This document shows, in pieces, positions 830 to 13,763 of a stretch of DNA of 22,429 bases. The translations under genes were made by a program, and so were the position numbers. Under the pieces are notes generated by a model. The model saw only the letters and a program-made list of their open reading frames with translations, was not told the DNA's origin and made no database searches. Location: positions 1-22,429 of the IMG/VR virus record IMGVR_UViG_3300037140_000008. One strand, 5' to 3'. Source of the DNA: a virus. How positions within the stretch are numbered: the first letter of the stretch is position 1; each line of letters starts with the position of its first letter.

Positions 830-1198
830 GTGACACCAGACATCCTGATCTTTCCGGTAGAGTGGAGACTGACTAAGAAACATCGGATTATTCTAGCTAC
901 GTTGGTTTATTCGCGTTTGGAGATCACGACGACGGAAACATTGTTTGATGCGGCCTACGGGGATCAAGCAATTGATGACCAGCCGACGACGCGGGCAGTT
1001 TACGTGCTTATATCCCAAGTGCGAAGTCGCATTCCGCGATGGATCAAAATAGTCAATGTTTCAGGCATCGGATACACGATCCATCGAGATATTCGTAAGC
1101 GATTGATAGGCGAGTGCAACCGGGCCGTTGAGGAGTTGCGAACCATGCTGGATACAATGCCGCTGGCGAAGTTGCAGAAACTGAGAGCGGAATCATGA
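830..1198 (+). CDS. Stand-alone winged-helix DNA-binding protein (OmpR/PhoB-type domain)
   Basis: 122 residues. It starts with GTG directly after an in-frame TGA at 827-829, so no longer N-terminus is possible in this frame; no strong Shine-Dalgarno is visible. Residues about 10-85 follow the OmpR/PhoB Trans_reg_C pattern: LT near 14-15 before the first helix, a central helix region ending in AAYG, the recognition-helix style ISQVRSRI at 61-68, and the wing VSGIGYTI at 77-84. No receiver domain is present. The C-terminal 35 residues are charged and probably helical. It sits between structural genes and overlaps the next ATG by four bases (ATGA), so it is co-transcribed with virion genes. A regulatory role for phage or host transcription is inference. 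DNA here is AT-richer than its neighbours, suggesting separate acquisition. Confidence 0.7.
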   Translation: MTPDILIFPVEWRLTKKHRIILATLVYSRLEITTTETLFDAAYGDQAIDDQPTTRAVYVLISQVRSRIPRWIKIVNVSGIGYTIHRDIRKRLIGECNRAVEELRTMLDTMPLAKLQKLRAES

Positions 1199-1941
1199 GC
1201 TTTGCTCCAACTCCTGATCAATCCGGTGTCCAAACGGCATTGCGATCTTTCCTGCTCGATGTGATTCCGGCTGGCATTGAAATTATTGAGGGCCAGGACA
1301 ACCGAAGTCCTGAGCCAGTTGGGACAGATTTTATCGTCCTCACAACCCTGCGCCGCATTAGGCTGGCGACGAACTTCGACACGGTCGCAGACGTCAAGTT
1401 TACCGGCTCTATCGCCGGGACCGTGATGACGGTGACCTCCGTCACCCGTGGCATAATCTCGGCCGGGGCGAAGGTGTTCGGCGTCGGCGTGGCGGCCAAT
1501 ACGGTTATTTCGGCGCAGATCAGCGGCACGCCGCCGGGTGGCATAGGAACTTATACCGTGGCACCGACGCAGACCGTTTCATCCGAGACGCTTTCCTGCG
1601 GCGCGAAGTCGCTGACTCAGAACACAGAAATTTCCGTGCAGCTAGATTTTCACAGCGCCGATGTTGGAGATTCCGCCGATCTAGCACAGACCGTGAGCAC
1701 ACTTTTTCGCGATGAATTTGCAACCAGGCAGTTCGCAAACCAAATCCCAAATTATGGGGTGACGCCATTGCTGGCGGACGATCCAAAACAAATCCCCTTT
1801 ATCAACGAAAACCAGCAATGGGAAACCAGGTGGATTTGCGAATGCCTACTTCAGTGCGATCAGACAGTCGCCGTATCTCAGCAATTCGCCGACTCTGCCG
1901 TTGTCGGTCTTATCGACGTGGATTCTGCCTACCCACCATGA
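1195..1941 (+). CDS. Phage neck terminator protein (LIC_12616/gp12-like) with inserted beta-module
   Basis: 248 residues. N-terminal VQTALRSFLLDVIP, EIIEGQDNRSPEPVG and DFIVLTTL, and C-terminal STLFRDEFA, PLLADDPKQIPFINENQQWE and VSQQFADSAVVGLIDVDSAYPP match my memory of the neck terminator family that caps the tail and joins it to the head. Between these halves, residues about 67-136 (TGSIAGTVMTVTSV... to ...TVSSETLSCG) are a foreign repeat module also present in the sheath and J proteins; removing it leaves about 178 residues, closer to the usual family size. Start ATG at 1195 overlaps the upstream TGA. The gene is followed by a 114-base leader before the sheath gene. Family call is confident; the insertion is directly visible by comparison inside the window. 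Confidence 0.85.
   Translation: MSFAPTPDQSGVQTALRSFLLDVIPAGIEIIEGQDNRSPEPVGTDFIVLTTLRRIRLATNFDTVADVKFTGSIAGTVMTVTSVTRGIISAGAKVFGVGVAANTVISAQISGTPPGGIGTYTVAPTQTVSSETLSCGAKSLTQNTEISVQLDFHSADVGDSADLAQTVSTLFRDEFATRQFANQIPNYGVTPLLADDPKQIPFINENQQWETRWICECLLQCDQTVAVSQQFADSAVVGLIDVDSAYPP
1393..1602 (+). repeat. Inserted beta-module, copy in neck terminator
   Basis: Residues about 67-136 of the neck protein follow the pattern G-(T)-x-(L/M)TV-x-x-V-x-x-G-x-I-x-x-G-x-x-(V/L)-x-G-x-x-V-x-x-NT-x-I-x-x-Q-(L/I)-(S/T)-GT-x-GG-x-GTY-x-x-(S/A)-x-x-Q-x-V-(A/S)-SE. The same pattern recurs in the sheath (2551-3192) and J protein (12435-13058, 13485-13688). Flanking sequence on both sides belongs to the neck family, so this is an internal insertion. 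Confidence 0.8.
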
Positions 1942-2055
1942 TCTAATGTTCGTTTTGTAAACCACGCAGGGGCGTGTTATCCGAATAACCAGCCACTCAC
2001 CGAATCGGCGCTAATTATGCTGTGATGCGGCTTGGCCGCCTTAAGGAGAGCCTAG
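1942..2055 (+). promoter_or_regulatory. Leader of the sheath gene with three small hairpins and a strong RBS
   Basis: This is the longest non-coding stretch of the window (114 bases). Three perfect 5-bp stems are visible: CACGC/GCGTG at 1963-1967 and 1972-1976 (loop AGGG), GTTAT/ATAAC at 1976-1980 and 1985-1989 (loop CCGA), and GCGGC/GCCGC at 2027-2031 and 2035-2039 (loop TTG). The last lies just upstream of AAGGAGAG at 2043-2050, which serves the sheath ATG at 2056. No U-run follows any stem, so a classical terminator is unlikely. A promoter or translational control for the abundant sheath protein is plausible, but no convincing sigma-70 boxes were found. Confidence 0.4.
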
Positions 2056-4236
2056 ATGTCAACGATCCCAGTCAACACGGTCGTCAGCGTCCAACCGAAC
2101 GTGCTTGGCACCGGCGGCAGCGCGGTCGACACCATCGGCCTCGTCTGCACGCAGAGCACCCGCGTTCCAATCGGGACGGTGGCTCCGTTCCCCAACGCTA
2201 CGGCGGTCGGTGACTTCTTCGGGCTGGCCTCGCACGAATACAACTGCGCGGAGGTGTATTTCCAGGGCTTCGATAACTCGAACGTCAAGCCTGGTTCCGT
2301 CCTGTTCGCGCAGTACAACGGCGCGGTCCCGGTCGCGGCCTACCTGCGCGGCGGTGACATTGCGGCCGAGGGTTTGACCGCCCTTCAACAGATTGCCAGC
2401 GGTACGCTCACCGTCGTCATGGACGGCTACACGCACACGGCGGCATCCATCAACCTCACCGGCGCCACCAGCTTCTCCAACGCGGCTGGCCTGATACAGA
2501 CCGCGCTCGATGCAAGCGAACCGACCGAGGCCAGTTTCACGAGTGCTCTAGGCGCGGCCATCACCGCGTCTATGGGCAGTAGCTGCACCACCAGCACCAC
2601 GACCGGCACCACACTCACGCTGGGTGCCTTGGCGTCCGGCTATCTGTCGGTCGGCGACTTGGTTTCCGGCACCGACAGCACCAACTCACTGCCCGCAGGC
2701 TGCCACATTCTAGCTCAACTTACCGGCACGCCGGGAGGTTCGGCCGGCGCGACGTTCACAATCAGCGCCGCTGCGACCCCCGGCAACATGACGAGCGCCA
2801 CGGTCACCGGCACGTCGACCATCATGGATGCTACGGTTGATACCGGGTATATCTCGATCGGCGACACCATTACGGGCACGACGGTCCCCACTAACACTAC
2901 GGTTCTCTCACAGTTGACCGGGACCACCGGCGGGGTCGGAACCTACCAACTTTCCTGCACCGCACAGGGCATTGCCAGCGAATCGATGTTGGCATTGTCC
3001 ACCGTGTTGGATGTCACGGTCTGTGCGACGCCGAACATTGCTGTCGGCCAGACGCTTGTCGGCTCCAGTGTCACTGGTACTCCAGTTATCACGGCCCAAA
3101 TCAGCGGCACGGCCGGAGGCGTCGGTTTCTATCGTATTAGTGGCTCACAGCAGCATGTTGTCAGCGAGAGCATGACCGCCGTGGCCACGGCACCGACCGT
3201 CACGTTCGATTCCACCAGCGGCGCATTTGTCGTCACCTCCGGCATCACCGGCACACCGTCAACGGCGGCCTTTGCAACCGGCTCGCTCAACGCATCCCTT
3301 CTCCTGACGTCGGCGACCGGCGCCATTCTCAGCCAAGGTGCGGCGGCAACGACGCCGTCGGCCTTCATGACAGGCATCACGCAAATCAACACGGACTGGG
3401 CGACCTTTATGCTCGCCTTCGATCCGGATAACGGCAGCGGCAACGCGCAGAAGCTGTTGTTCATAGAGTGGACATCGCTGCAGAACGACCAGTTCGGGTT
3501 TGTCTGCTGGGACACCGACGTCACCCCGACCACGCAGGTGCCGGCAACGTCGAGCCTCGGCTATCTCATCCAGCAGAACGACTACAGTGGAACGTGTCTG
3601 GTATGGGAGCCTTCGGACTTGCTGCTCGCACCGTTTGTGTGTGGCATGGCGGCATCTATCGACTTTACCGAAACGAACGGCCGCATTACCTTCGCGTTCA
3701 AACATCAGGCCGGTCTTACCCCGACCGTCACCAATGCAACCGTCGCCGCCAACCTAATCGCCAACGGCTACAATTTCTACGGCGCCTACGCTGCCGCGAC
3801 GCAGCCCTTCATGTGGTTCAACCCTGGTTCGGTGAGCGGGCCGTTCCTCTGGTTCGACAGCTACATCAATCAGATCTGGCTCAACAGCTACTTCCAGATC
3901 GTGCTCGCTAATCTGCTCAACACCGTCAAGTCGATTCCGTACAACGCCGCTGGCTATCTCATGATTGAGGCAGCCTGCGCGGATGTCATCAATGCAGGCT
4001 TGAACTTCGGTGCTTTCTACGCCGGAGTTCCGTTGTCAGCCGCACAAGCCGCGGAGGTCAACGCGGCTGCTGGAGCCAATATCGCGCCGACGTTGAGTCA
4101 GCGCGGATGGTATCTTCAGGTGTTGCCTGCGGCACCGTCCACTCGCGCCGCGAGACAATCTCCGCCTTGCAACTTCTGGTATATGGATGGCGAGAGTGTG
4201 CAACTTCTGCGATTAACCTCAGTTTTGGTTGAGTGA
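2056..4236 (+). CDS. Contractile tail sheath protein (DUF3383) with three inserted beta-modules
   Basis: 726 residues, well above the roughly 500 I expect. The N-terminal part (TVVSVQPNVLGTGGSAVDTIG, PIGTVAPFPNA, VYFQGFDNSNVKPGSVLFAQY) and the part after residue 380 (TVTFDSTSGAFVVTSGITG, SQGAAATTPSAFMTGI, DWATFMLAFDPDNGSGNAQK, GFVCWDTD, SGTCLVWEP, RITFAFKHQAGL, YNFYGAYAAATQPF) are DUF3383 sheath sequence, ending with SPPCNFWYMDGESVQLLRL. Residues about 166-379 are three tandem copies of a module found also in the neck and J proteins; without them the protein is about 512 residues. AAGGAGAG at 2043-2050 supports the ATG at 2056. The sheath surrounds the tube and drives injection by contraction. 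The C-terminus looks complete although a homing endonuclease gene follows immediately. Confidence 0.9.
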   Translation: MSTIPVNTVVSVQPNVLGTGGSAVDTIGLVCTQSTRVPIGTVAPFPNATAVGDFFGLASHEYNCAEVYFQGFDNSNVKPGSVLFAQYNGAVPVAAYLRGGDIAAEGLTALQQIASGTLTVVMDGYTHTAASINLTGATSFSNAAGLIQTALDASEPTEASFTSALGAAITASMGSSCTTSTTTGTTLTLGALASGYLSVGDLVSGTDSTNSLPAGCHILAQLTGTPGGSAGATFTISAAATPGNMTSATVTGTSTIMDATVDTGYISIGDTITGTTVPTNTTVLSQLTGTTGGVGTYQLSCTAQGIASESMLALSTVLDVTVCATPNIAVGQTLVGSSVTGTPVITAQISGTAGGVGFYRISGSQQHVVSESMTAVATAPTVTFDSTSGAFVVTSGITGTPSTAAFATGSLNASLLLTSATGAILSQGAAATTPSAFMTGITQINTDWATFMLAFDPDNGSGNAQKLLFIEWTSLQNDQFGFVCWDTDVTPTTQVPATSSLGYLIQQNDYSGTCLVWEPSDLLLAPFVCGMAASIDFTETNGRITFAFKHQAGLTPTVTNATVAANLIANGYNFYGAYAAATQPFMWFNPGSVSGPFLWFDSYINQIWLNSYFQIVLANLLNTVKSIPYNAAGYLMIEAACADVINAGLNFGAFYAGVPLSAAQAAEVNAAAGANIAPTLSQRGWYLQVLPAAPSTRAARQSPPCNFWYMDGESVQLLRLTSVLVE
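2551..3192 (+). repeat. Three tandem beta-modules inserted in the sheath gene
   Basis: Approximate limits: copy 1 at residues 166-254 (2551-2817), copy 2 at 255-315 (2818-3000), copy 3 at 316-379 (3001-3192). Shared landmarks are G-x-I/L-x-(V/I)-GD/GQ, the segment (S/A)QLTGTxGG or AQISGTAGG, GTY or GFY, and SESM near the end of copies 2 and 3. Copy 1 is longer, with an extra PAGCHILAQLTGTPGGSAGATF segment spread over its middle. Copies 1 and 2 together are strongly similar at protein level to the first two copies in the J gene, but codons differ at many third positions. Confidence 0.85.
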
Positions 4237-4238
4237 GG

Positions 4239-4290
4239 TTGCTAGATTACCTTTTGAGTGTATATATACTAAATATACACACAGGAGGCG
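4239..4290 (+). promoter_or_regulatory. Possible promoter, hairpin and RBS of the homing endonuclease gene
   Basis: After the sheath stop comes TTGCTA (4239-4244) followed 16-18 bases later by overlapping TATATA boxes at 4261-4268, a reasonable sigma-70-like candidate. The same AT-rich tract forms a perfect 8-bp hairpin, GTGTATAT (4258-4265) with ATATACAC (4273-4280), loop ATACTAA. A strong AGGAGG at 4283-4288 then precedes ATGATG. A hairpin just upstream of the RBS is compatible with translation control of a free-standing endonuclease gene, but this is inference. Confidence 0.45.
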
Positions 4291-5286
4291 ATGATGAATA
4301 TCTTCTACGTTTACGAACACTGGCGTCCAGACAAAAACACTTGTTTTTATGTAGGGAAGGGTAAAGGAAAACGAGCTTACTTGCTTCAGCGAGATAATAG
4401 ATATTATGCCCGTGTTGTAAATAAGCTGGTTCGTCTCGGCCTTACAGTTGAGGTCAAGATAGTAGAAGAGGGTCTGTCTGAAGATGCGGCGTTTAAATTG
4501 GAGAAGTACTACATCGAGGTCTGGCGCAACAAGGGTGCCGGATTAACAAATAAATCAGATGGCGGTGATGGCCCTGCGGGCTATAAGTTTACTCTCGAAC
4601 AGCGGAAAAGTTTGAGCGAGGCTCATCTTGGAAAGAAGCAGTCCAGGGAATCTGTGGAGAAAAGAATAGCTCCGCTAAGGGGAAGAAAACTGAGGTCGCG
4701 GACACCTGAAGAAATAGAGGCAATGCGGACGAAGCTTATAGGTAGAAAGAATGGACCACATTCTAAGAAAACGAAAGCCAACATCAGCGCGGCCTTGAAA
4801 GGCAAAAAACGTGGGCCTCATACTGAAGCTCACTGTGAGGCGATAAGCAAAGGCAACACAGGCAAGCGATTGTCAAAGATGCACCGGAAAAATATCTCTC
4901 TTGCCAAGACTGGCGTCCCACAGGGACCTCATACCGCTCAGCACAATGCAAAGATAGGCATGGCCCTGAGAGGCAGAAAAGATTCACCTGACGTGTGTGC
5001 TAGAAAAAAACTGGCTGCAAAACGGCGCGCTCCATCGACAAAAGAAACAAGGGCAAAAATCAGCGAAACTATGAGCCAACTTTGGGCGGCCAATTCTGAG
5101 TATCGCGAAAGAATGTCGGAGGCCGGGAAGAATCGGTCGCCGATTTCTCGGAAGACTCGTGCTAAGATGAGGGCTGCCCAGCGAAGGCGTCGGTCCCGAA
5201 TAAAGGTATCCGCTCAGACCAGGGCTAGAGCAAGTCTGAGCATGACTGAATGGCACGCGCGCCGCGCTGCCTTAATAGAAGGGTAA
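4291..5286 (+). CDS. Free-standing GIY-YIG homing endonuclease with NUMOD3 repeats
   Basis: 331 residues. The N-terminal GIY-YIG nuclease domain is clear: FYVYE at 5-9, FYVGKGKGKR at 19-28, EKYYIE at 71-76 with the likely metal-binding glutamate, and LTNKSDGGDGP at 86-96. From about residue 100 to 310 there are roughly seven to nine short NUMOD3-type DNA-binding repeats, for example KANISAALKGKKRGPHT, KIGMALRGRK and TRAKISETM, rich in Lys and Arg. AGGAGG at 4283-4288 favours the second ATG (4294) slightly over 4291 on spacing. The gene is visibly AT-richer than the structural genes around it and lies between intact sheath and tube genes, so it is a selfish intergenic element, not an intron or intein. 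It would cut a related phage lacking the insertion to spread itself and linked tail genes. Confidence 0.92.
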   Translation: MMNIFYVYEHWRPDKNTCFYVGKGKGKRAYLLQRDNRYYARVVNKLVRLGLTVEVKIVEEGLSEDAAFKLEKYYIEVWRNKGAGLTNKSDGGDGPAGYKFTLEQRKSLSEAHLGKKQSRESVEKRIAPLRGRKLRSRTPEEIEAMRTKLIGRKNGPHSKKTKANISAALKGKKRGPHTEAHCEAISKGNTGKRLSKMHRKNISLAKTGVPQGPHTAQHNAKIGMALRGRKDSPDVCARKKLAAKRRAPSTKETRAKISETMSQLWAANSEYRERMSEAGKNRSPISRKTRAKMRAAQRRRRSRIKVSAQTRARASLSMTEWHARRAALIEG

Positions 5287-5292
5287 TCGCCC

Positions 5293-5724
5293 ATGCCATC
5301 AATCACTTCCGCCAACGCCACGTTCATGATGACCGTTGGCACGCTGTTTCCAACGCCGCAGCAGATTCAGAATTTCGGGTCCGACGACGTCACCGACACC
5401 GACGAGATGGAAATCTCGCAGGTGCTCATGGGTGTTGACGGCAATCTCTCCGGCGGGTTTGTTTTCGTCGAGGTCAAGCAGAGCATCATGTTGATGGCCG
5501 ATTCACCGAGCATCGACCTGTTCGATCAATGGTACTTGGGCCAGTTGGCCAATCTGACGACCTACAACTCCAACGCGACGCTTCAGTTCGACGTCGGCAC
5601 GAAGTGGACGCTGACCAAGGGCTTCCTGACCGGCTACAAGCCGATCCCGCAGGCCAAGAAGCTGCTACAGCCGCAGCGGTTCGGTATCACCTGGCAAAGT
5701 GTCAGCCCGTCACCAAGCAATTAG
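5293..5724 (+). CDS. Tail tube protein (DUF3277-like)
   Basis: 143 residues, a normal size for a phage tail tube subunit. Landmarks: NATFMMTVGTLFPTPQQIQ near the start, the D/E-rich VTDTDEMEISQVLMGVDG, SGGFVFVEVKQSIMLMADSPS, and a C-terminus with GYKPIPQAKKLLQPQRFGITW. This resembles the tube family that follows DUF3383 sheaths in alphaproteobacterial phages. It polymerises inside the sheath to form the DNA channel. The gene starts only 6 bases after the homing endonuclease stop; its likely RBS, AGAAGGG at 5276-5283, lies within the end of the endonuclease gene. The insertion has therefore replaced or supplied the tube translation signal. Confidence 0.8.
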   Translation: MPSITSANATFMMTVGTLFPTPQQIQNFGSDDVTDTDEMEISQVLMGVDGNLSGGFVFVEVKQSIMLMADSPSIDLFDQWYLGQLANLTTYNSNATLQFDVGTKWTLTKGFLTGYKPIPQAKKLLQPQRFGITWQSVSPSPSN

Positions 5725-5747
5725 CAACATGAGAACGGGAGATCACA

Positions 5748-6230
5748 TTGCCGAGGAGAACCAAGACATACGTCATCGCTGACGAAAATCGCGACAAGGG
5801 CAAAATGTTCTTGCTCACGGAGATGCCTGCCCTTCAGGCCGAGAAGTGGGCGATCCGCGCGTTCCTTGCTCTGGCAAAGGCCGGCCTTGTCATTCCCGAT
5901 GATGTAGCCTCGCGCGGCATGGAGGCGATGGCGGTGGCCGGCTTCAACGCGCTGGCCGGGATGCACTACGAGGACGCCGAGCCGCTGCTCAACGAGATGT
6001 TCGAGTGCGTCAGGATCGTTCGCGACCACGCACACCCAGAGACGGCATTTCCATTACTTCCAGACGACATCGAGGAGGTCCAGACGATTCTGGAACTGCG
6101 GCGCGAGGTGTTCACATTGCATACGGGTTTTTTGCAGGCCGTCGTCAAGTCGAAATTGACAGAGACGTCTGGGACGACGGCGCCACACTCGCAACATGCC
6201 CGAACGTCCCACGCACAATCCACGCGGTAA
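5748..6230 (+). CDS. Tail assembly chaperone G (0-frame product)
   Basis: 160 residues, starting with TTG at 5748 after GGGAG at 5737-5741; no ATG in this frame fits. The protein begins PRRTKTYVIADENRDKGKMFLLTEMPALQAEKWAIRAF, a typical start for the G-type tail assembly chaperone (Phe/Leu-rich binding of exposed tape measure and tube surfaces). The main helical body runs to about residue 128 (TLHTGF). The last about 30 residues read past the slippery site are low-complexity (SHAQSTR end), as expected when the biologically important extension is in the -1 frame. Position between tube and tape measure is diagnostic. Made in excess over the G-T fusion. Confidence 0.85.
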   Translation: MPRRTKTYVIADENRDKGKMFLLTEMPALQAEKWAIRAFLALAKAGLVIPDDVASRGMEAMAVAGFNALAGMHYEDAEPLLNEMFECVRIVRDHAHPETAFPLLPDDIEEVQTILELRREVFTLHTGFLQAVVKSKLTETSGTTAPHSQHARTSHAQSTR

Positions 6231-6364
6231 TCAGCGGCGAGAAGGCGACGCTGCAAGAGTTAGGCACGGTCTACGGTCTCGAAGACCTCTATGATATGTT
6301 GGAGATCATCATCGTGGACGCGCACAATCACAAGATCCTGAGCAAGCGATCGGGGAAGAAGTAA
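5748..6364 (+). CDS. Tail assembly chaperone G-T fusion made by -1 frameshift
   Basis: If the ribosome slips back one base at 6128-6134, the first 129 codons of G join the -1 frame from 6134 and continue AGRRQVEIDRDVWDDG... to the TAA at 6362-6364, about 205 residues. The extension has sensible sequence (IHAVISGEKATLQELGTVYGLEDLYDMLEIIIVDAHNH), resembling T-domain sequences that recruit tube subunits to the chaperone-coated tape measure. The -1 frame has no credible start of its own near the extension: a start at 6005 would read Arg-rich out-of-frame sequence of G. The tape measure gene begins on the very next base after its stop. Confidence 0.8.
6128..6134 (+). promoter_or_regulatory. Programmed -1 ribosomal frameshift site T_TTT_TTG with downstream stem
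   Basis: The heptamer TTTTTTG fits X_XXY_YYZ exactly in the G frame (codons GGT TTT TTG). Three bases further, GCCGTCGTC at 6138-6146 pairs perfectly with GACGACGGC at 6173-6181, a 9-bp GC-rich stem closing a 26-base loop. That is a good frameshift stimulator, although the spacer is shorter than the usual 5-9 bases unless the base of the stem frays. Confidence 0.85.
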
Positions 6365-8248
6365 GTGGCCACCGTCATAGACGAACTTATCGTACGCATC
6401 GGTTTGGATGCCTCGCAGTTCGATAAGGGCCAGCGCGAGGCTTCCGGCGCATTTCTAAAAACGCGCGACGCCGCAGTCAAGAGTGGCAAGGAAATTGAGG
6501 CGCACGCCAAGACCAGCACCGAGGCGTTTGCGAAGCTGCGAGATACGGCCATTGCGTTGTTCGCAGTATTTACTGGCGGCGTGGGGTTAAAAGAGTTTGT
6601 TCAGACGATGACGACGGCCACTGCCGCCACTGGGCGGGTCGCGGCCGGACTCGGTATTTCAGTCAAGACCCTGAGCGCCTACGAGGGTGCTGCCGAGGCA
6701 GCCGGCGGTACAACGCAGGGCATGGCAAACGCCTTCTCATCCCTTGCTGATAACTTGCAGTCATTCCTCAACACCGGCAGCTCAGCTCTCCCGGCATATT
6801 TCACGGCGCTTGCTCGTGAGGGCGGCAAGGCCATCGATGTTAACAAGCCGCTCCCAGAGTTAATGCACGATATTATCGAAGATATTGCCAAGATAGCTCA
6901 AATCAATCCGCAGCGTGCCACATACTTCGCAAAACAGTTCGGTGTGGCAGAGTTGGTCCCGTTATTGACAGGTGGGATCGAGAAGTTCGACGAACTACAG
7001 AAAAAGATGAAAGCCTTTGCCGAGACGCCAGAACAGGCGCAAGCGGCGACCGATCTTCGCACTGCTTGGGTTCTACTGTTAGCGGAATGGGAAAGCGTTG
7101 GACGGGAGCTTCTTCTGGAGTTGAAGCCAGCACTAATGAGCATCATGGGCGTGCTTAAGCAGTTTGCTGACTGGGCGAAGACGCATCCGGCCGAGGTGAA
7201 GATTGGCTTTGAGATGATCACGGCCTCCGTTACCGCGCTATCTCTCGCAATGCTGGGCCTGTCCCTGGCCGCAGCACCGTGGCTGGTAGCAGGTGCTTTG
7301 ATTGCTGGACTTGCTTTAGTAATCTATGAAAATTGGGAACCTATTAAGACATGGTGGAAGGCACTCTGGAAAGAGATGGGAGATGATATTGATGATTTTG
7401 AGGCCCGCCATCCTTGGGTAAAACCCATCATAGAGGGGGCACGAGCTGTTGGTAAATTTCTGAATCAGGACATTGGCGGCGGGACATCATCTTCTGGGGC
7501 TTCTGGTTCATGGACAGACAGTACGCAGCCTTCGACTACGTCTGGTAGTGCTGCCACAAGCGGAGGTGCCGCGCCTCACAGTGGTGCGTTTCAAAGTAAC
7601 AAGACTGCTGCTGCAAAGCAGGCTGCAATGGAGCAACTCAGGCAAGAGGGCGTTCCAGAAAAGAACTTGGAATCAGCCGCCTCTCTGCTCACTGGACAGG
7701 CAATTGCGGAGAGCGGTCTTAATCCTAACACCATCCATGACGGCGGTCGCGGTTATGGCGTGTACGGCGCGGGCGGCATTCGTCGTACAAAGATGTTGCA
7801 ATGGTTGAAAGACAATAAATTTGCCCAAAATAGTTTAGAAGGGCAGATGAAATATATGGCCCATGAGGCCATGACCGGACCTAATTATAGAGCGTCGCGT
7901 CAAGCATTGATGCAGGCGTCTCCGCAGAATCTTGAGGCCGGAACAAGGGCGCTGACCCATAATTTTGAATCACCGGCAGTTGAAAATTGGGGCACTCGAC
8001 TTAAAAACTCGATGACGGCTCTTAGCGCGCTGCCGTCTCTGGCCGCTAGCGCACAGGCCGCCGCCGCGTCGAGCAGCGTCTGGAACGACAGCCACGCCTC
8101 AACCAACACCACCAGCAACGAGACTAACATCAACGGTGGGATGCACATTCACACACCAGCCACGGACGGTGCCGATTTTGCTCAGCGGTTCGGTGATTGG
8201 ACGCGAAACTCGCAGAAGTTTGCGGCGGCCAATTTCGGAGGCAACTGA
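6365..8248 (+). CDS. Tail tape measure protein with tail lysozyme domain
   Basis: 627 residues, GTG start adjacent to the G-T stop, with GGGGAAGAAG just upstream. Residues 1-70 (DELIVRIGLDASQFDKG, helical, Ala/Lys/Thr-rich) are a classic tape measure opening; a hydrophobic stretch at about 288-320 (ALSLAMLGLSLAAAPWLVAG) would serve in membrane insertion. After a Ser/Thr/Gly linker (371-410), residues about 415-555 form a phage tail lysozyme: GQAIAESGLNP with candidate catalytic E449, then DGGRGYGVYG, LQWLKDN, LEGQMKYMAHE and FESPAVENWGTR. DNA from about 7320 to 8000 is AT-richer than the flanks, suggesting the lysozyme module came from elsewhere. The tape is short, implying a short tail. It sets tail length and likely opens peptidoglycan during injection. 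Confidence 0.88.
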   Translation: MATVIDELIVRIGLDASQFDKGQREASGAFLKTRDAAVKSGKEIEAHAKTSTEAFAKLRDTAIALFAVFTGGVGLKEFVQTMTTATAATGRVAAGLGISVKTLSAYEGAAEAAGGTTQGMANAFSSLADNLQSFLNTGSSALPAYFTALAREGGKAIDVNKPLPELMHDIIEDIAKIAQINPQRATYFAKQFGVAELVPLLTGGIEKFDELQKKMKAFAETPEQAQAATDLRTAWVLLLAEWESVGRELLLELKPALMSIMGVLKQFADWAKTHPAEVKIGFEMITASVTALSLAMLGLSLAAAPWLVAGALIAGLALVIYENWEPIKTWWKALWKEMGDDIDDFEARHPWVKPIIEGARAVGKFLNQDIGGGTSSSGASGSWTDSTQPSTTSGSAATSGGAAPHSGAFQSNKTAAAKQAAMEQLRQEGVPEKNLESAASLLTGQAIAESGLNPNTIHDGGRGYGVYGAGGIRRTKMLQWLKDNKFAQNSLEGQMKYMAHEAMTGPNYRASRQALMQASPQNLEAGTRALTHNFESPAVENWGTRLKNSMTALSALPSLAASAQAAAASSSVWNDSHASTNTTSNETNINGGMHIHTPATDGADFAQRFGDWTRNSQKFAAANFGGN

Positions 8249-8251
8249 GTT

Positions 8252-8899
8252 ATGGTTGCCTATCCAGACGTTCCACTTGCGCTAGGAGTTCCGACCCTCT
8301 TTCGGGATCCGAACGCCGCGCCGTCCGTGATCGATCTACTCACGAGCGACACGGTGTCATTTGGATCGTCTTCCGCTCCGCAGTGGGGCATCTTCTTGAA
8401 TGGTGCGCCTATTATTCAGGCCGACAACGTGGTCAGTTTCACTTACAAACAAGAGTGGGTGATTGCTGACTACCCAGTCGAACAAGGTGGCTTTGAATCC
8501 TACGATAAGGTTCAGCGGCCGTTCGACGTCCGTGTTCGCTACTCGGCCGGCGGCGACACGGCCAACAGGGAGGCGCTTCTTGCCTCGGTCGCGGCCATCG
8601 CTGGCGACCTGAATTTTTACGACGTGCAGACGCCAGAGACGACGTACAGCAGTGCCAATGTTACGCATTACGATTACTCACGCACCAACACCAATGGCGT
8701 TGGCCTCATCATCATCGACGTCTGGCTGGTTGAGGTAAGGCAGACCGGCAGTGCCACGGCGGGTGCTACGGGGAGTACGCCGCAAGTTACGAACCCGCAA
8801 GACCCTAGTGCCACGTCGCCTGTTAGCGGGGGACAGGTGCAGCCAACCGACGTTACGTCGCAGCAGACGACCTTGGGTGGCGCGACGGGGAGTTGGTAA
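8252..8899 (+). CDS. Dit-like baseplate protein
   Basis: 215 residues. The core (APQWGIFLNGAPIIQADNV, FTYKQEWVIADYPVEQGGFESYDKV, PFDVRVRYSAGG) resembles the Dit-like phage tail proteins that ring the tube at the top of simple contractile baseplates. Residues from about 157 to the end are a low-complexity Ser/Thr/Gln/Gly tail. GGAGG at 8238-8242 supports ATG 8252. Position directly after the tape measure and before the plug fits a tube-baseplate adaptor. Exact family assignment is from remembered motifs and is less certain than the gene itself. Confidence 0.65.
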   Translation: MVAYPDVPLALGVPTLFRDPNAAPSVIDLLTSDTVSFGSSSAPQWGIFLNGAPIIQADNVVSFTYKQEWVIADYPVEQGGFESYDKVQRPFDVRVRYSAGGDTANREALLASVAAIAGDLNFYDVQTPETTYSSANVTHYDYSRTNTNGVGLIIIDVWLVEVRQTGSATAGATGSTPQVTNPQDPSATSPVSGGQVQPTDVTSQQTTLGGATGSW

Positions 8900-8900
8900 C

Positions 8901-9230
8901 ATGCCTCTCGTTGTTCCTCTCCAACCTGTGCCGTCCCAGAACGTCTCGGTGACGCTCAACAATCAGGAATGCCAGCTCAGTGTCTACACCGAGAACGGTC
9001 AACTCTATATGAACGTCTCCGTGGCCAATGAGCTGATCATCGGTGGCGTGATCGCACAAAATCTAAACCTGATTGTGCGCGATCTCTACCTCGGCTTCAT
9101 CGGAGATTTCGTATTTCTCGACAACAGCGGCAACGGCGCGGACCCCGTGTTTGTTGGGCTGGGCACCGCGTTCAGCCTGATCTACCTGTTCCCGGCTGAT
9201 TTGCAGAACCTCCCGCCGGGGGTCGGCTGA
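8901..9230 (+). CDS. Baseplate plug protein (cyanophage Pam3 gp18-like)
   Basis: 109 residues. I chose ATG 8901, one base after the upstream TAA, over an upstream in-frame start, because MPLVVPLQPVPSQNVSVTLNNQECQ is the characteristic family start; LIIGGVIAQNLNLIVRDLYLGFIGDFVFLDN and GLGTAFSLIYLFPADL follow. This small beta protein closes the lumen of the hub in Pam3-type simplified baseplates. GGGG at 8887-8890 is the nearest ribosome-binding candidate. Its last codons (PPGVG-stop) lie in a 17-bp sequence repeated exactly at the end of the next ORF. Confidence 0.75.
   Translation: MPLVVPLQPVPSQNVSVTLNNQECQLSVYTENGQLYMNVSVANELIIGGVIAQNLNLIVRDLYLGFIGDFVFLDNSGNGADPVFVGLGTAFSLIYLFPADLQNLPPGVG
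9214..9230 (+). repeat. 17-bp direct repeat, copy 1 (end of plug gene)
   Basis: CGCCGGGGGTCGGCTGA occurs here and again exactly at 9564-9580, 350 bases apart. It encodes PGVG-stop in the plug frame and carries GGGGG 10 bases before the ATG at 9233. The core GGGGGTCGG recurs at 10511-10519 near the end of the hub gene. Confidence 0.95.
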
Positions 9231-9232
9231 TC

Positions 9233-9580
9233 ATGAGATATAAATTAGTATTCTATATTGAGGACGCCGAAACCAAGGAAATTATTGGAGAGAAGAAGCA
9301 GATGTTTGTTGATCTTGCAGAGGATCAACTCAAGCGCGCGGATGATGTTGACGCGGAGAAACTCAAGAAGGTGAACGATCTGATTGGTGATTGCTTTGCA
9401 AACAGAGTGGCCCACGGGCGCGGGAAATATATTCGTGAAATCTGTACAGCGGCCGGGACCTTGGTTGGTAAATCTATAGAGCGGTTGCTGGCCAAGAGAT
9501 GTGGCAGCAACCACATCGAGATGCTCGACGCCGCCGCTGAAAAGAATCGACGTAGCAAAGAAACGCCGGGGGTCGGCTGA
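9233..9580 (+). CDS. Small charged protein of unknown function, apparently captured between plug and hub
   Basis: 115 residues, rich in Lys, Glu and Asp (IEDAETKEIIGEKKQMF, DAEKLKKVNDLIGD, AEKNRRSKE), with no signal peptide or membrane segment. It is unlike a virion beta protein. I do not recognise a family. It is AT-richer than plug and hub on either side. Its final residues TPGVG and stop fall in the exact 17-bp repeat also found at the end of the plug gene, in the same reading phase. This implies it was inserted at the plug/hub junction, reusing the junction as its own end and as the next gene's translation signal. ATG at 9233 follows the first repeat by 2 bases. Confidence 0.75.
   Translation: MRYKLVFYIEDAETKEIIGEKKQMFVDLAEDQLKRADDVDAEKLKKVNDLIGDCFANRVAHGRGKYIREICTAAGTLVGKSIERLLAKRCGSNHIEMLDAAAEKNRRSKETPGVG
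9564..9580 (+). repeat. 17-bp direct repeat, copy 2 (end of 115-residue ORF)
   Basis: Exact copy of 9214-9230. It ends the 115-residue ORF with PGVG-stop and places GGGGG (9568-9572) 9 bases before the hub ATG at 9582. Either copy can therefore act as a stop plus ribosome-binding unit. Confidence 0.95.
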
Positions 9581-9581
9581 C

Positions 9582-10532
9582 ATGGCCTTGCTCCAACGGC
9601 TTCTCAACGTCACATTCGGGCTCACCTCCGGCACGTTCACCGATAGCGGCAGCAACTCCCTGACGCTTACCGGACTTCGCATTCACGCCGACGCGCACTT
9701 CCCCGGCGGCAGCGACATGAACTCGCTGCACGCCGAAATCTACGGAATGACGCTGAGCCAGATGAACGACCTCATGACCTACGGGGCAATCCCGCAGAAC
9801 ACCGGAAAGAATACCGTGACGCTGACGGCCGGAGATGCAGTCAACGGAATGAGCCAAGTGTTCAGCGGCACCATCGTCAATGCGTGGGGTGACTTCCAAT
9901 CGGCGCCAGAGGTGGTGCTGCACGTGCAGGGTAGCGGTGGTACAAACCCGGCGGTGGCGGCGACGCCGCCGACATCAAGCGCCGGATCTGTCAGTATTCC
10001 GACGCTGATGCAACAGGTGGCTGGCGCTGCTGGTATGCAGTTTGAAAATAATGGCGTCACCGGGATGCTGTCCAACCCGTACTATCCAGGGACTGCCCGC
10101 GAACAACTCTTGGCGATGGTCAAGGACGTCGGCTGCGAGTGGAACGCGATGGAGAATAATGTCGTCTCGATCTGGCCGGTGGATGGATCGAGGGCAGGTG
10201 GCGTGACGACGCAGGTCAACAAGGACACCTGCATGGTTGGTTATCCTCTGTTCAACGCGAATGGAATCGTGGTCAAGACGCTTTATACGCCGTCGATAAA
10301 GTTCGGCACGCTCATCCAGGTCACTAGCGATCTCACCGGCAGCCAAACCAGCGGCAACGTCACGGTCGGTGGTGGCACATCCGGTGCCAACGGAACGTGG
10401 AAGGTTATGAGCATCGACTACGATCTAGACTCTCTAGTCTTCGGAGGGCAGTGGTTTTCTACCTTGTTTGCGTCACTCCCTGGTTATGTGCCTACGTTGA
10501 CGCCAGCCGCGGGGGTCGGTCCCGGTCCATGA
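9582..10532 (+). CDS. Baseplate hub protein (gp27/D-like)
   Basis: 316 residues from ATG 9582; in-frame upstream codons read a Lys/Arg-rich leader from the previous gene and are not used. Sequence such as MALLQRLLNVTFGLTSG, LTLTGLRIHADAHFPGGSDMNSLHAEIYGMTLSQMNDL, AGDAVNGMSQVFSGTIVNAWGDF, PYYPGTAREQLLAMVKDVGCEWNAMENNVVSIWP and VGYPLFNANGIVVKTLYTP fits phage baseplate hub proteins, which form a trimeric ring between tube and spike. It lies between plug and spike as in Pam3-like baseplates. The C-terminus AAGVGPGP is read from a G-rich stretch containing GGGGGTCGG, and the TGA overlaps the spike ATG. Confidence 0.75.
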   Translation: MALLQRLLNVTFGLTSGTFTDSGSNSLTLTGLRIHADAHFPGGSDMNSLHAEIYGMTLSQMNDLMTYGAIPQNTGKNTVTLTAGDAVNGMSQVFSGTIVNAWGDFQSAPEVVLHVQGSGGTNPAVAATPPTSSAGSVSIPTLMQQVAGAAGMQFENNGVTGMLSNPYYPGTAREQLLAMVKDVGCEWNAMENNVVSIWPVDGSRAGGVTTQVNKDTCMVGYPLFNANGIVVKTLYTPSIKFGTLIQVTSDLTGSQTSGNVTVGGGTSGANGTWKVMSIDYDLDSLVFGGQWFSTLFASLPGYVPTLTPAAGVGPGP

Positions 10533-11215
10533 GCGATACCTCACAAGCCGTAGGTCAGATGGGCGTCAACTCGGCGACGTCCGAGTTCAACGGCATAGAG
10601 TTCATGTTTCAGCAAATGCTTGGCCGCCTCGCAACGGCGACCGTCGTTAAGGTCGTGGCGGTTAAGCCGGGCACGACTAACGCTCTGACAAACATGGTTG
10701 GAACTGTGGACGTGCTGCCGCTCGTCAATCAGATCGACGGTGTCGGCAATGTGACCAAGCACAAGACGGTCTTCGGTCTTTCATATTCTCGGATACAAGG
10801 TGGCGCCAATGCGGTCATCATGGACCCGGTGGTTGGAGACTTAGGGATTGCCGTCTTCGCCAACCGCGATATTTCTTCTGTCAAGGCCAGCAAGGCGCAG
10901 GCTAATCCGGGGTCCAAGAGGCGGTTCAGTTATTCCGATGGAATGTACGTCGGTGGTTTGCTCAACGGAGCGCCGACGCAGTATGTTATTTTCTCGGCAG
11001 ATGGCACCACAGGGATCACTTTGGTGTCCCCCGGCCTCGTCAAGATTCAGGCCCCGAACGCCGAGTTCACTGGGAACGTCAAGGTAGACGGTTTGATCAC
11101 AGCGACTGGCAACATAACTGCCGGGTCAGGCACTGGGGATTCGGTCGGACTGCAGAAGCACACGCATCCGACGGCGGCCCTCGGAGCTCCGTCAGCACCG
11201 ACGGCGGGGACGTGA
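10529..11215 (+). CDS. Baseplate spike protein (Gp138/V-like)
   Basis: 228 residues from ATG 10529, overlapping the hub TGA (ATGA). The N-terminal OB-fold-like part includes FMFQQMLGRLATATVVKVVAV, VGTVDVLPLVNQIDG and YSRIQGGANAVIMDPVVGDLGIAVFANRDIS, the pattern of Gp138-type membrane-puncturing spikes. Residues about 165-205 (TTGITLVSPGLVKIQAPNAEFTGNVKVDGLITATGNITAG) are a beta-helical stalk of short repeats, and QKHTHPT near the end could hold a metal at the tip. It pierces the outer membrane when the sheath contracts. Confidence 0.82.
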   Translation: MSDTSQAVGQMGVNSATSEFNGIEFMFQQMLGRLATATVVKVVAVKPGTTNALTNMVGTVDVLPLVNQIDGVGNVTKHKTVFGLSYSRIQGGANAVIMDPVVGDLGIAVFANRDISSVKASKAQANPGSKRRFSYSDGMYVGGLLNGAPTQYVIFSADGTTGITLVSPGLVKIQAPNAEFTGNVKVDGLITATGNITAGSGTGDSVGLQKHTHPTAALGAPSAPTAGT

Positions 11216-11216
11216 C

Positions 11217-11657
11217 ATGAACACTCTTCTTTTGGATGTGAGTGCGTGGGATTTAGTTGTTGATATATCTGGCAACATCGCGGTTGCAGAATCGCCTTAC
11301 GCTCTTGCACAAGACGCCGCCAGCGCGATCAAACTGTTCCATGGCGAGCTCTGGTTCGACACCACGCAAGGCGTCCCGTATTGGGCGCTGATTCTCGGCC
11401 TGTCGCCCCCTGTCGCCTTGATGAAGAGCAAGTTTAAGGCTGCGGCACTAACGGTGCCTGGGGTAGCCTCTGCCGTGTGTTATCTATCGTCGATAGTTGA
11501 TCGAGTCGTCGGAGGGCAGGTGCAGGTGACAAGCGCGACTGGTCAGACATCGGCGGCATCGTTCTCTCCCGCCAGCACGGTCATTCCGCCGTCAGCCAAT
11601 CCGTCGCTTGATTTCTCGAACCCAAGCAATTCGCAATATCTGCCTGGGGGGCTATAG
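11217..11657 (+). CDS. Baseplate wedge / sheath initiator protein (gp25/W-like)
   Basis: 146 residues. The central part (VVDISGNIAVAESPYALAQDAASAIKLFHGELWFDTTQGVPYWALILG, LMKSKFKAAALTVPGVASAV) matches the gp25-like fold pattern of small wedge proteins from which the sheath starts to polymerise. The C-terminal 40 residues are a Ser/Pro/Asn-rich tail. It starts 1 base after the spike stop with GGGG 7 bases upstream. Position between spike and J supports the call. Confidence 0.72.
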   Translation: MNTLLLDVSAWDLVVDISGNIAVAESPYALAQDAASAIKLFHGELWFDTTQGVPYWALILGLSPPVALMKSKFKAAALTVPGVASAVCYLSSIVDRVVGGQVQVTSATGQTSAASFSPASTVIPPSANPSLDFSNPSNSQYLPGGL

Positions 11658-11663
11658 CCTGAC

Positions 11664-13763
11664 ATGGTAAACACCACAAATGTTCCGCAGCCGGCGTTCA
11701 CGGCGCTAGGATTCGTCCCTCCGACGCAGGCGCAGATCCTCGCCGGTGTCATTGCGGACTTTCAAGCCGCATTCAATAACGCGCTCAACCTAAGCCTTGC
11801 CAACACGTCATCGTTGAGCACGCCGCAGGGGCAGCTCGCGTCGAGCGAGACGGCGATCATCGCCTTCACCAACGCTCTGTTTTGCGCGCTCGCCAACGGC
11901 GTCGACCCGGCTTATGCCTCGGGCCGGATGCAGGACGCCATTGCCCGCATCTACTTCATCGAGAGGAATCCACCACAGCCGACCGTGGCGGCCTGCTTGT
12001 GCGTTGGACTGGCTGGCGTCGTCATTCCGCAGTTCGCACTGGCGCAGGACAGCGCGGGGAACACCTACTACGCGGTCGACGGCGGGACCATTCCTTCGGG
12101 CGGCTCAATCACGCTCAACTTCGCCAACAACATCACGGGACCGATCCCGTGCCCGGCGAATACGCTCACGACGATATACCAGTCCGTCACTGGCTGGGAC
12201 ACGATCAACAACCCGTCCGATGGCGTGCTCGGGAATGTGGTCGAGAGCCGCGCGGCCTTCGAGGCTAGACGCCAGGCCACCGTCGCTGGCAACTCGGTAG
12301 GGATGCTGGCCTCGGTTCGGGGTGCCGTCCTTAATGTTCCAGACGTTGTTGACTGTTTCACCACCGAGAACGAAACGGCCTACCAGGGCATCGCCAATGT
12401 TCAGGCCGTGATCACCGGCTACATTGCGGCGGCGAACACCACCATGACCGCCTCGATGGGCGGCCACTTCGCCACCTGTATTACGACTGGGACTACGCTC
12501 ACGCTTGGGTCAGTGACCAACGGCTATCTGTCGGCCGGGGATTTGGTTTCTGGCACTGACAGCGCCACCGGCTACACTCTGCCAGCAGGCTGCCACATCA
12601 TCGCACAGTTGACAGGAACGCCTGGTGGCTCGGCCGGTGCCACTTTTCTGCTTAATGCCCCTAGCACTGGAGGAAATTTAGGAAGCTTCACGGTCACTGC
12701 CATATCAATCGTCCTCGACGCAACGGTGGTTACAGGTGTCATCCAGATTGGTGCCACCATCATTGGCACCAGCGTCCCCACCAGCACGACGGTCGTCTCG
12801 CAGCTCACCGGAACTCCGGGCGGAGTTGGCACGTATCAATTGAGTTGTACGACTCAGTCCATTGCGAGCGAGTCGATGACCGGCGGGTATGCTGGTCTGA
12901 ACGTGGCTGGGGTCACATCCGGGATCATCGCGCCGGGCCAGTACATCTCCTGCCCCGGTATTGCCTACGGTACGACGGTCATAAGCGGCTCCGGCTTGTT
13001 GTGGTCGATCTCGGCATCGCAAACGATCGGGACCATCAGTGAGCCGATCGAGATGACGCTCGGTGCGGTTCAACTTCTACCAAATTCGATCTACGTTGCG
13101 GTTGCCGGCGGTGCCGAGGCAGCGATAGCTCAAGCAATCTGGAGCAAGAAGGCTCCCGGTTGCAACTACAACGGTAACACCTCTGTTGTCGTCTACGACA
13201 CCAGTCCGCCGTATCCGCCGCCTGGGATTCCATACACGGTCACCTATGAGACGCCGACTGACGAGACCGTGTTCTTTGCCGTCACGATTGCCAACTCGAC
13301 GCTGGTCCCCGCAAACGCGGCCACGCTCATCCAGAATGCCATTATCGCCGCGTTCTCTGGCGAGGACGGCGGCAGTCGCGCACAGATGAGTTCTACGATT
13401 CTTGCCTCGCGCTACTATTGTGGAATTGCCGCGCTTGGATCATGGGCACAGATCACCGCGCTGACGATGGGTTCGACGGTCACAACTGCTGCCGTGATGG
13501 CGACGTCATCAATCTCAGGCACCACACTCACGGTTGGGTCGTTGACCTCGGGGACGATTGCAGCCGGGCAGCAACTTGTTGGTGCCGAAGTTATTCCAGG
13601 CACCGTGATTGTAAGCGGAAGCGGGTCGTCCTGGGTCGTCAGCATCGGTCAGACCGTGGCCTCGACAACGATCGACGCTTATGCGGTCACAGCGTCATCA
13701 GTTACCATGTTAGCGAATCAGGAGCCGGTCACGTCGGCCGCCAACATCGTTGTGACAGTCTAG
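11664..13763 (+). CDS. Baseplate wedge protein J (gp47/JayE-like) with four inserted beta-modules
   Basis: 699 residues. N-terminal features are J-like: GFVPPTQAQILAGVIADFQAAF, LSTPQGQLASSETAIIAF, GVDPAYASGRMQDAIARIYFIERNPPQPT, GTIPSGGSITLNFANNITGPIPCPANTLTTIYQSVTGWDTINNPSDG, ESRAAFEARRQATVAGNSVGMLASVRGAVLNVPDV. The family then resumes at about 464 (EMTLGAVQLLPNSIYVAVAGG, AIAQAIWSKKAPGC, ETVFFAVTIANSTLVPANAATLIQNAIIAAFSGEDGG). Residues about 258-463 are three copies of the module also in sheath and neck; a fourth sits at about 608-675 near the C-terminus. Without them the core is about 425 residues. J proteins form the wedge ring that holds fibres. GGGGGG at 11646-11651 precedes ATG 11664. 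Confidence 0.85.
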   Translation: MVNTTNVPQPAFTALGFVPPTQAQILAGVIADFQAAFNNALNLSLANTSSLSTPQGQLASSETAIIAFTNALFCALANGVDPAYASGRMQDAIARIYFIERNPPQPTVAACLCVGLAGVVIPQFALAQDSAGNTYYAVDGGTIPSGGSITLNFANNITGPIPCPANTLTTIYQSVTGWDTINNPSDGVLGNVVESRAAFEARRQATVAGNSVGMLASVRGAVLNVPDVVDCFTTENETAYQGIANVQAVITGYIAAANTTMTASMGGHFATCITTGTTLTLGSVTNGYLSAGDLVSGTDSATGYTLPAGCHIIAQLTGTPGGSAGATFLLNAPSTGGNLGSFTVTAISIVLDATVVTGVIQIGATIIGTSVPTSTTVVSQLTGTPGGVGTYQLSCTTQSIASESMTGGYAGLNVAGVTSGIIAPGQYISCPGIAYGTTVISGSGLLWSISASQTIGTISEPIEMTLGAVQLLPNSIYVAVAGGAEAAIAQAIWSKKAPGCNYNGNTSVVVYDTSPPYPPPGIPYTVTYETPTDETVFFAVTIANSTLVPANAATLIQNAIIAAFSGEDGGSRAQMSSTILASRYYCGIAALGSWAQITALTMGSTVTTAAVMATSSISGTTLTVGSLTSGTIAAGQQLVGAEVIPGTVIVSGSGSSWVVSIGQTVASTTIDAYAVTASSVTMLANQEPVTSAANIVVTV
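12435..13058 (+). repeat. Three tandem beta-modules inserted in the J gene
   Basis: Approximate limits: copy 1 residues 258-347 (12435-12704), copy 2 residues 348-407 (12705-12884), copy 3 residues 408-463 (12885-13058). Copy 1 and copy 2 are close protein-level relatives of sheath copies 1 and 2, sharing TASMG, TTGTTLTLG, GYLS.GDLVSGTDS, LPAGCHI, AQLTGTPGGSAGATF, and GVGTYQLSCT with SIASESM. Copy 3 is more diverged and follows the shorter pattern with SGSG replacing the GTPGG loop. Confidence 0.85.
13485..13688 (+). repeat. Fourth beta-module, near the J C-terminus
   Basis: Residues about 608-675: ISGTTLTVGSLTSGTIAAG, QQLVGAEVIPGTVIVSGSGS, VSIGQTVASTTIDAYAV. Same module pattern as the other seven copies, separated from the J internal block by about 145 residues of J-family sequence, so it is an independent insertion or a displaced copy. 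Confidence 0.7.

Follow-up and report, generated by a model that had tools for sequence, protein, structure and literature searches.

An inserted all-beta module shared by the sheath, tail terminator and baseplate wedge proteins of a myophage contig and by many other exterior virion proteins

Promiscuous surface domains are already known as a kind in phages from the immunoglobulin (Ig)-like domains, small beta domains that occur in unrelated exterior virion proteins, are exchanged horizontally, and have been proposed to be weak binders of cell-surface carbohydrates (a view quoted in PMC9230969). Sheath insertion domains (XM1 gp6 InD and those of type 2/3 sheaths; PMC10457771, PMC9230969) are extra domains on a conserved core, away from the part that contacts the tube, and capsid cement and decoration proteins, such as lambda gpD and XM1 gp53, which forms trimers on the outside of the capsid (PMC10457771), stand alone. 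In their study of domain mosaicism in phages, Smug et al. 2023 (PMC10684548) describe homologous fragments common to functionally different proteins, with recent or ongoing shuffling; the examples include fibres, endolysins, polymerases and a neck passage protein, and the sheath is not mentioned in the main text. Here we describe a module of approximately 65 residues, predicted to be all beta, that is present in eight copies in three proteins of a 22,429-base virus record (IMG/VR IMGVR_UViG_3300037140_000008, positions 1 to 22,429, hereafter the window), which carries a myophage neck-tail-baseplate block. The carriers are the tail terminator (one copy), the sheath (three) and the J-type baseplate wedge protein (four).

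The module resembles each of these systems in part. Like the phage Ig-like domains (Big_2, I-set, HYR) it is a small beta domain of unrelated exterior proteins that probably moves horizontally, but it has a predicted non-Ig fold, forms tandem arrays of one to three per slot, and is almost absent from phage records; the proposal in the initial annotation that its sequence differs from Ig-like domains agrees with the lack of an Ig-like match in Pfam or NCBIfam for any of the eight copies. Like the sheath insertion domains it is added to a conserved core, and it is predicted to lie away from the tube, with the difference that here a repeated module lies within a loop of that region and is shared with about 60 further clusters of carriers. 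Among solved structures the most similar fold, a suggestive likeness only, is that of a probable cement protein, and two decoration families carry the module themselves, although it is inserted into these and into many other proteins. Like the fragments of domain mosaicism, it is shared by proteins of different function.

Eight copies of one inserted module

An alignment (A1) of the eight proposed copies was used to build a profile that was iterated over fetched relatives, and all eight copies score with it, essentially at the positions given in the initial annotation (Table 1). The weakest is J3, the only marginal score, and the QLTGTPGG hairpin is missing from both J3 and J4. For most pairs of copies, comparison with shuffled sequences leads to the same conclusion. 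Chance is excluded, as the iterated profile identifies 333 copies in the open reading frames (ORFs) of the first fetched loci and the window, and none when those ORFs are reversed or shuffled. A 1512-residue fibre (P0004) was rejected as a carrier; it gives many spurious matches in a raw BLAST self-comparison without composition correction, and the profile finds none even though the fibre is equally rich in Gly, Ser and Thr. Because the window begins downstream of the head genes, eight copies are a minimum for its phage.

Table 1. Carrier genes and module copies in the window (i-E, independent E-value with the iterated profile)
Feature	Position	Strand	Details
Neck/tail terminator gene	1195..1941	+	PF23961 (E 4e-17), phrog_1876; one module
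Module N1	1405..1602	+	terminator residues 71-136; i-E 2e-22, 77 bits
Tail sheath gene	2056..4236	+	DUF3383 PF11863 (E 3e-113), phrog_205; three modules
Module S1	2596..2820	+	sheath residues 181-255; i-E 2e-12, 45 bits
Module S2	2812..3003	+	sheath residues 253-316; i-E 5e-15, 54 bits
Module S3	2998..3189	+	sheath residues 315-378; i-E 2e-17, 62 bits
J-type baseplate wedge gene	11664..13763	+	phrog_6 (E 8e-44); four modules
Module J1	12477..12707	+	J residues 272-348; i-E 2e-10, 39 bits; sheath slot-1 clade
Module J2	12711..12884	+	J residues 350-407; i-E 3e-14, 51 bits; groups with sheath slot-2
Module J3	12894..13031	+	J residues 411-456; i-E 2e-5, 23 bits; partial/degenerate, resembles J4
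Module J4	13509..13685	+	J residues 616-674; i-E 3e-11, 42 bits; C-terminal slot

That host sequence resumes on both sides of the copies, as had been suggested, is confirmed in the sheath. DUF3383 matches this protein in two pieces flanking the modules (model positions 2-162 before and 146-489 after), and in alignment with the solved E217 and Pa193 sheaths residues 28-153 correspond to 27-150 and residues ~380-677 to ~159-452, such that a module block of ~225 residues occupies a loop of ~8 residues, equivalent to E217 gp31 residues 150-158. Protein sizes follow the copy number. Sheaths without the module are complete at 498-504 residues (six proteins), as expected for an insertion in a sheath, whereas those with one, two and three copies are mostly 563-580, mostly 638-675, and 723-740 residues long. 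Terminators are 172-205 residues without the module (12 proteins), 237-260 with one copy (except for one of 430 residues), and 311 and 332 with two. The initial annotation had held that the window's own sheath and terminator come near the expected sizes once the copies are removed. The XM1 gp53-type capsid-decoration proteins have lengths of 167/190, 234/253, 302-347 and 372-402 residues for zero to three copies, and we note that four genes of this type with 3, 2, 1 and 0 modules lie on a single contig (L054:5917-10419).

Additional slots are used in some relatives. The sheaths of L004 and L112 have a second slot (residues 63-132), as do the terminators of L058 and L129, and the module therefore entered these families more than once; the C-terminal slot of J4 is also used by six other J proteins. 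One could suppose instead that the module is ancestral to the DUF3383, terminator and J families and present throughout them, since a slot is inherited within a lineage and closest matches are mostly in the same family. This explanation is refuted, however, because the module is missing from the six complete sheaths, the 12 terminators, one complete J protein, the Pfam models, and both E217 and Pa193. By these alignments the module is an insertion, present or absent at fixed slots in zero to three copies with stepwise changes in protein size. The resulting ladder of 0, 1, 2 and 3 copies in the same slot is a natural series for probing the effect of surface decoration, and the capsid-decoration and sheath slots, which naturally tolerate one to three extra domains, are potential display sites.

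Carriers and movement between genes and phages

Viral contigs were searched with two DNA pattern scans for the GTxGGxGTY core, and the counts that follow refer to the matches listed and are lower bounds. The module is present in nearly every locus listed (126 of 126 in one scan and 111 of 115 in the other), with at least 500 copies (>500) in ~240 viral loci, and the carriers, compared with their modules masked, fall into at least 62 clusters (about 62) that include at least 15 named families. These include the DUF3383 sheath, the terminator, J, an E217 gp28-type collar protein (phrog_1912), head closure Hc3 (phrog_578) and an SU10-type adaptor (PF24175); collar fibres (phrog_1800, 523), tail fibres (phrog_9729, 12796), a tail spike (phrog_2234) and a tail protein (phrog_376); the XM1 gp53-type minor capsid protein (PF23982), lambda gpD (PF02924), the HK97-type major capsid protein (PF05065) and a head structural protein (phrog_3287); and glycosidase-like proteins with GH71 and DUF1996 domains. 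The commonest carriers are the capsid-decoration proteins (47 in cluster 0). The profile search and count of host families that the initial annotation had proposed show many unrelated families, and its three carriers, all on a contractile tail, are an undercount, with capsid, decoration, fibre and other proteins also carrying the module and contractile tails not being its only setting. The nearest relative of the window alone (G001, 37 kb, 93% identical in the C-terminal half of the sheath) has 11 copies in five proteins: two in a capsid-decoration-type protein, one in a 200-residue E217 gp28-type collar protein, one in the terminator, three in the sheath and four in J. The two-copy protein, which fits the capsid-decoration type, is encoded next to the major capsid gene.

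The loci were selected for holding a module but the gene holding it was not, and in the same loci the module is found in 44/57 sheath, 26/42 terminator and 10/13 J matches (a 986-residue J-fibre ORF of L124, at the record end and probably frameshifted, was left out), compared to none of the 234 homologues of internal-type tail genes (tube 47, chaperone 42, tape 34, plug 24, the protein after the plug 22, hub 23, spike 21, W25 14 and DUF2612 7). The earlier view of a promiscuous domain of exterior proteins that spares tube, tape, plug, hub and spike is therefore upheld, and as judged from sequence the copies form one family whose carriers belong to many unrelated virion families, with internal tail proteins lacking it. 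Two loci (L228:207-3347 and L233:1967-5101) encode phrog_376 tail proteins that contain the module and have a weak major-tail-protein match, which suggests that they may be a tail part exposed in a non-contractile tail, unlike the module-free tube of myophages. Proteins with GH71 and DUF1996 domains that contain the module are encoded on viral contigs (L037:2053-3609, L110:1680-3236 and L003:116-2239), and in the GH71 protein the module falls within the span of the enzyme-domain match.

Relationships between copies point to movement between genes. S1 plus S2 and J1 plus J2 share 68% DNA identity over 437 bp. A tree built from 124 copies puts J1 inside the clade of sheath slot-1 copies (support 97) and J2 with sheath slot-2 copies (94). 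J4, in contrast, clusters with the C-terminal-slot copies of other J proteins (96), in a clade that includes two L038 sheath copies, and J3 resembles J4 (z 10.8), S3 and J3 being only 24% identical. The J insertion is thus a mosaic, and the tree places in the window's J a two-module block of the sheath-type family together with one module related to J's own copy. Among 284 best matches, S2/J2 is also the only cross-gene pair between unlike proteins within a genome. Exchange between phages is suggested by comparison of the window with L125, in which the module region of the sheath and its surroundings (about residues 126-460) have a synonymous divergence (dS) of 0.60 compared to 1.4-1.6 elsewhere in the sheath, with a lower nonsynonymous divergence (dN) too. 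Module identity is at least equal to that of the core, being 53-57% versus 52% for pairs of two-copy sheaths and 85-92% versus 60% for the window and L125.

Predicted fold and proposed function

AlphaFold2 modelling of N1 with 110 natural sequences yields an all-beta structure (predicted local distance difference test, pLDDT, 93.4; predicted template modelling score, pTM, 0.83) that has a long strand at either end. Foldseek finds no solved structure at E<0.001. The nearest chain is 8eci_1, a 124-residue protein of Arthrobacter phage Bridgette (template modelling (TM) score 0.70, probability 1.00, E 0.038, 20% identity), followed by F1-ATPase beta subunits with TM about 0.5, whereas antibody (Fab) domains give TM about 0.26 and E 5-8; the predicted fold is thus not Ig-like. 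Bridgette is reported to have dimeric capsid cement proteins (PMC13033339), and from its size 8eci chain 1 is probably one of these, although the likeness of the modelled fold to this chain is suggestive only. Among predicted viral structures, good matches are found in uncultured phage proteins whose labels are major capsid, P22 gp10-like, side-tail-fibre and pectate lyase. The giant virus Indivirus ILV1 has two proteins with collagen repeats (BFVD A0A1V0SCQ2 and A0A1V0SDM6) that contain the module fold, with 34-40% identity. A model of the full sheath (pLDDT 79) matches the E217, Pa193 and XM1 sheaths.

The modules are composed of 49% Gly/Ser/Thr, with 3% charged residues, 0.1% Trp, and almost no His. 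G49, G56 and Y58 are invariant and V18, G24, G29, G34, G53, T57 and S68 nearly so, the sole invariant aromatic residue being Tyr58 in the GTY motif. This pattern is structural, and no conserved ligand site is evident. The initial annotation had suggested that the domain may bind host envelope or sugars; the composition is unlike that of a typical carbohydrate-binding site and speaks against a classical one.

We lean, on balance, towards a promiscuous surface-decoration domain, carried as an in-frame insertion within exposed loops or close to protein ends and acting probably through many weak contacts. The module would fold independently, whether alone or in a head-to-tail array of two or three per slot. 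Its two terminal long strands would bring the ends together, so that it could be tolerated in loops with the host protein undisturbed. Recombination would spread it between genes and between phages. From the insertion slots and the literature the copies are predicted to project outwards; the sheath slot is probably within the region equivalent to the XM1 insertion domain, which is added to the N-terminal domain. Each virion would thereby present hundreds of identical weak surface contacts, with three per sheath subunit alone, and these may help the particle to adhere to cells, envelopes or extracellular polymers, or to stay in their vicinity, a role that has been proposed for phage Ig-like domains. 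With the 204 sheath subunits of E217 (PMC10329688) there would be ~600 modules on the sheath alone, although the tail may be shorter in the phage of the window. Weak multivalent contact is preferred because the module occurs among unrelated neighbours and in variable number. Several observations weigh against this proposal. The sheath model is only moderately confident within the modules (pLDDT ~34-80), no binding residue is conserved, and the composition points to no specific ligand. The sheath-to-J step has dS values of 1.3-2.0 and so is old, and 201 of 284 copies find their closest counterpart in a protein of the same family from another phage, so that gene-to-gene jumps are rarer than vertical inheritance. 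On these matches general gene conversion within genomes, which was also considered, is rejected.

The chief competing explanation, which we regard as rather unlikely, is that the modules are cementing or stabilising elements that contact neighbouring subunits, make capsid, neck and sheath more resistant to environmental stress and do not engage cells. The probable cement function of the Bridgette chain and the abundance of capsid-decoration carriers fit this, and stabilisation of the disc has been proposed as a role of extra domains in sheaths (PMC9230969). However, the module is found among quite different neighbours, including fibres, a spike, glycosidase-like proteins, J and the adaptor, and specific interlocking contacts are hard to square with zero to three copies in one slot. 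Somewhat less probable again is neutral or selfish spread of a self-folding, recombining sequence that is tolerated in loops and has no selected function. Although the free variation in copy number, the many homologues without the module, and the lack of conserved ligand residues are all as expected from such spread, the confinement to surface proteins and a conservation at least equal to that of the host proteins are not, and a functionless 600-bp insert should be readily lost from a genome of ~37 kb.

A specific receptor- or sugar-binding module, i.e. a carbohydrate-binding domain, would account for the fibre, spike and glycosidase-like (GH71, DUF1996) carriers and has an analogy in phage Ig-like domains and carbohydrate-binding modules (CBMs), but we consider it very improbable, as there is no conserved aromatic or charged pocket, only the one invariant Tyr of GTY, and no CBM or lectin model was matched. 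Returning to surface decoration through weak contacts, a broader version can be put forward tentatively, and we think it more doubtful than the decoration role itself: that in many uncultured phages one mobile family covers the particle from capsid and decoration proteins through collar, neck and sheath to wedge and fibres, with something like several hundred to a thousand copies on each, forming a generic adhesive or protective layer. Its modules would move as plug-ins between genes, would have been missed because they are almost absent from cultured phages, and may reach giant viruses such as Indivirus.

Database records and neighbouring genes

No Pfam or NCBIfam model covers the module, and none is matched by the eight copies. 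PDB sequence searches with the profiles gave chance matches only. One segment of PHROG 21413 and 38233 does match (E to 1e-11), although these are whole-protein families (unknown function/tail fibre) in which the segment is not named as a domain. A real copy was used as query against phage records, since the BLAST low-complexity filter masks the module consensus, and only one of 50,697 records was matched, the environmental genome MW202520; plasmid records gave no match. The query recovers 103 of ~129 test loci at the database size of the phage collection, and the scarcity is thus not merely a matter of insensitivity. A scan of genome contigs listed at least one metagenome-assembled genome among its matches. 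The module is common in environmental phages yet nearly invisible in phage records; it appears to be an unnamed family and may be a non-Ig counterpart of the phage Ig-like domains. In the open literature, which is what our search covered (subscription journals lie outside it), the family, its non-Ig fold, the copy ladder and the scarcity in phage records appear to be undescribed.

Recognition of the module should also improve annotation, since module-rich proteins are otherwise mis-sized or mis-assigned. For example, the carrier in MW202520.1 (L133, 12097-13065) is annotated in GenBank as a 'portal protein', but a separate P22-like portal is present in the same genome; the size and position of the carrier fit an SU10-type adaptor, and it is probably misnamed.

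Other genes of the window deserve brief mention. The first complete gene (108-806) encodes an N-terminal part unrelated to its C-terminal glycine-rich segment (PF21722 Gly_rich_2, E 2e-5), which is possibly another plug-in domain. A small ORF among the structural genes (830-1198) resembles, by eye, a winged-helix DNA-binding domain of the response-regulator type. Between the sheath and tube genes there is an apparent GIY-YIG homing-endonuclease-like gene (4291-5286), read by eye from the sequence, and a relative (contig L134) has two similar GIY-YIG-like genes, also identified by eye, in its head-neck region (7479-8219 and 8789-9391).

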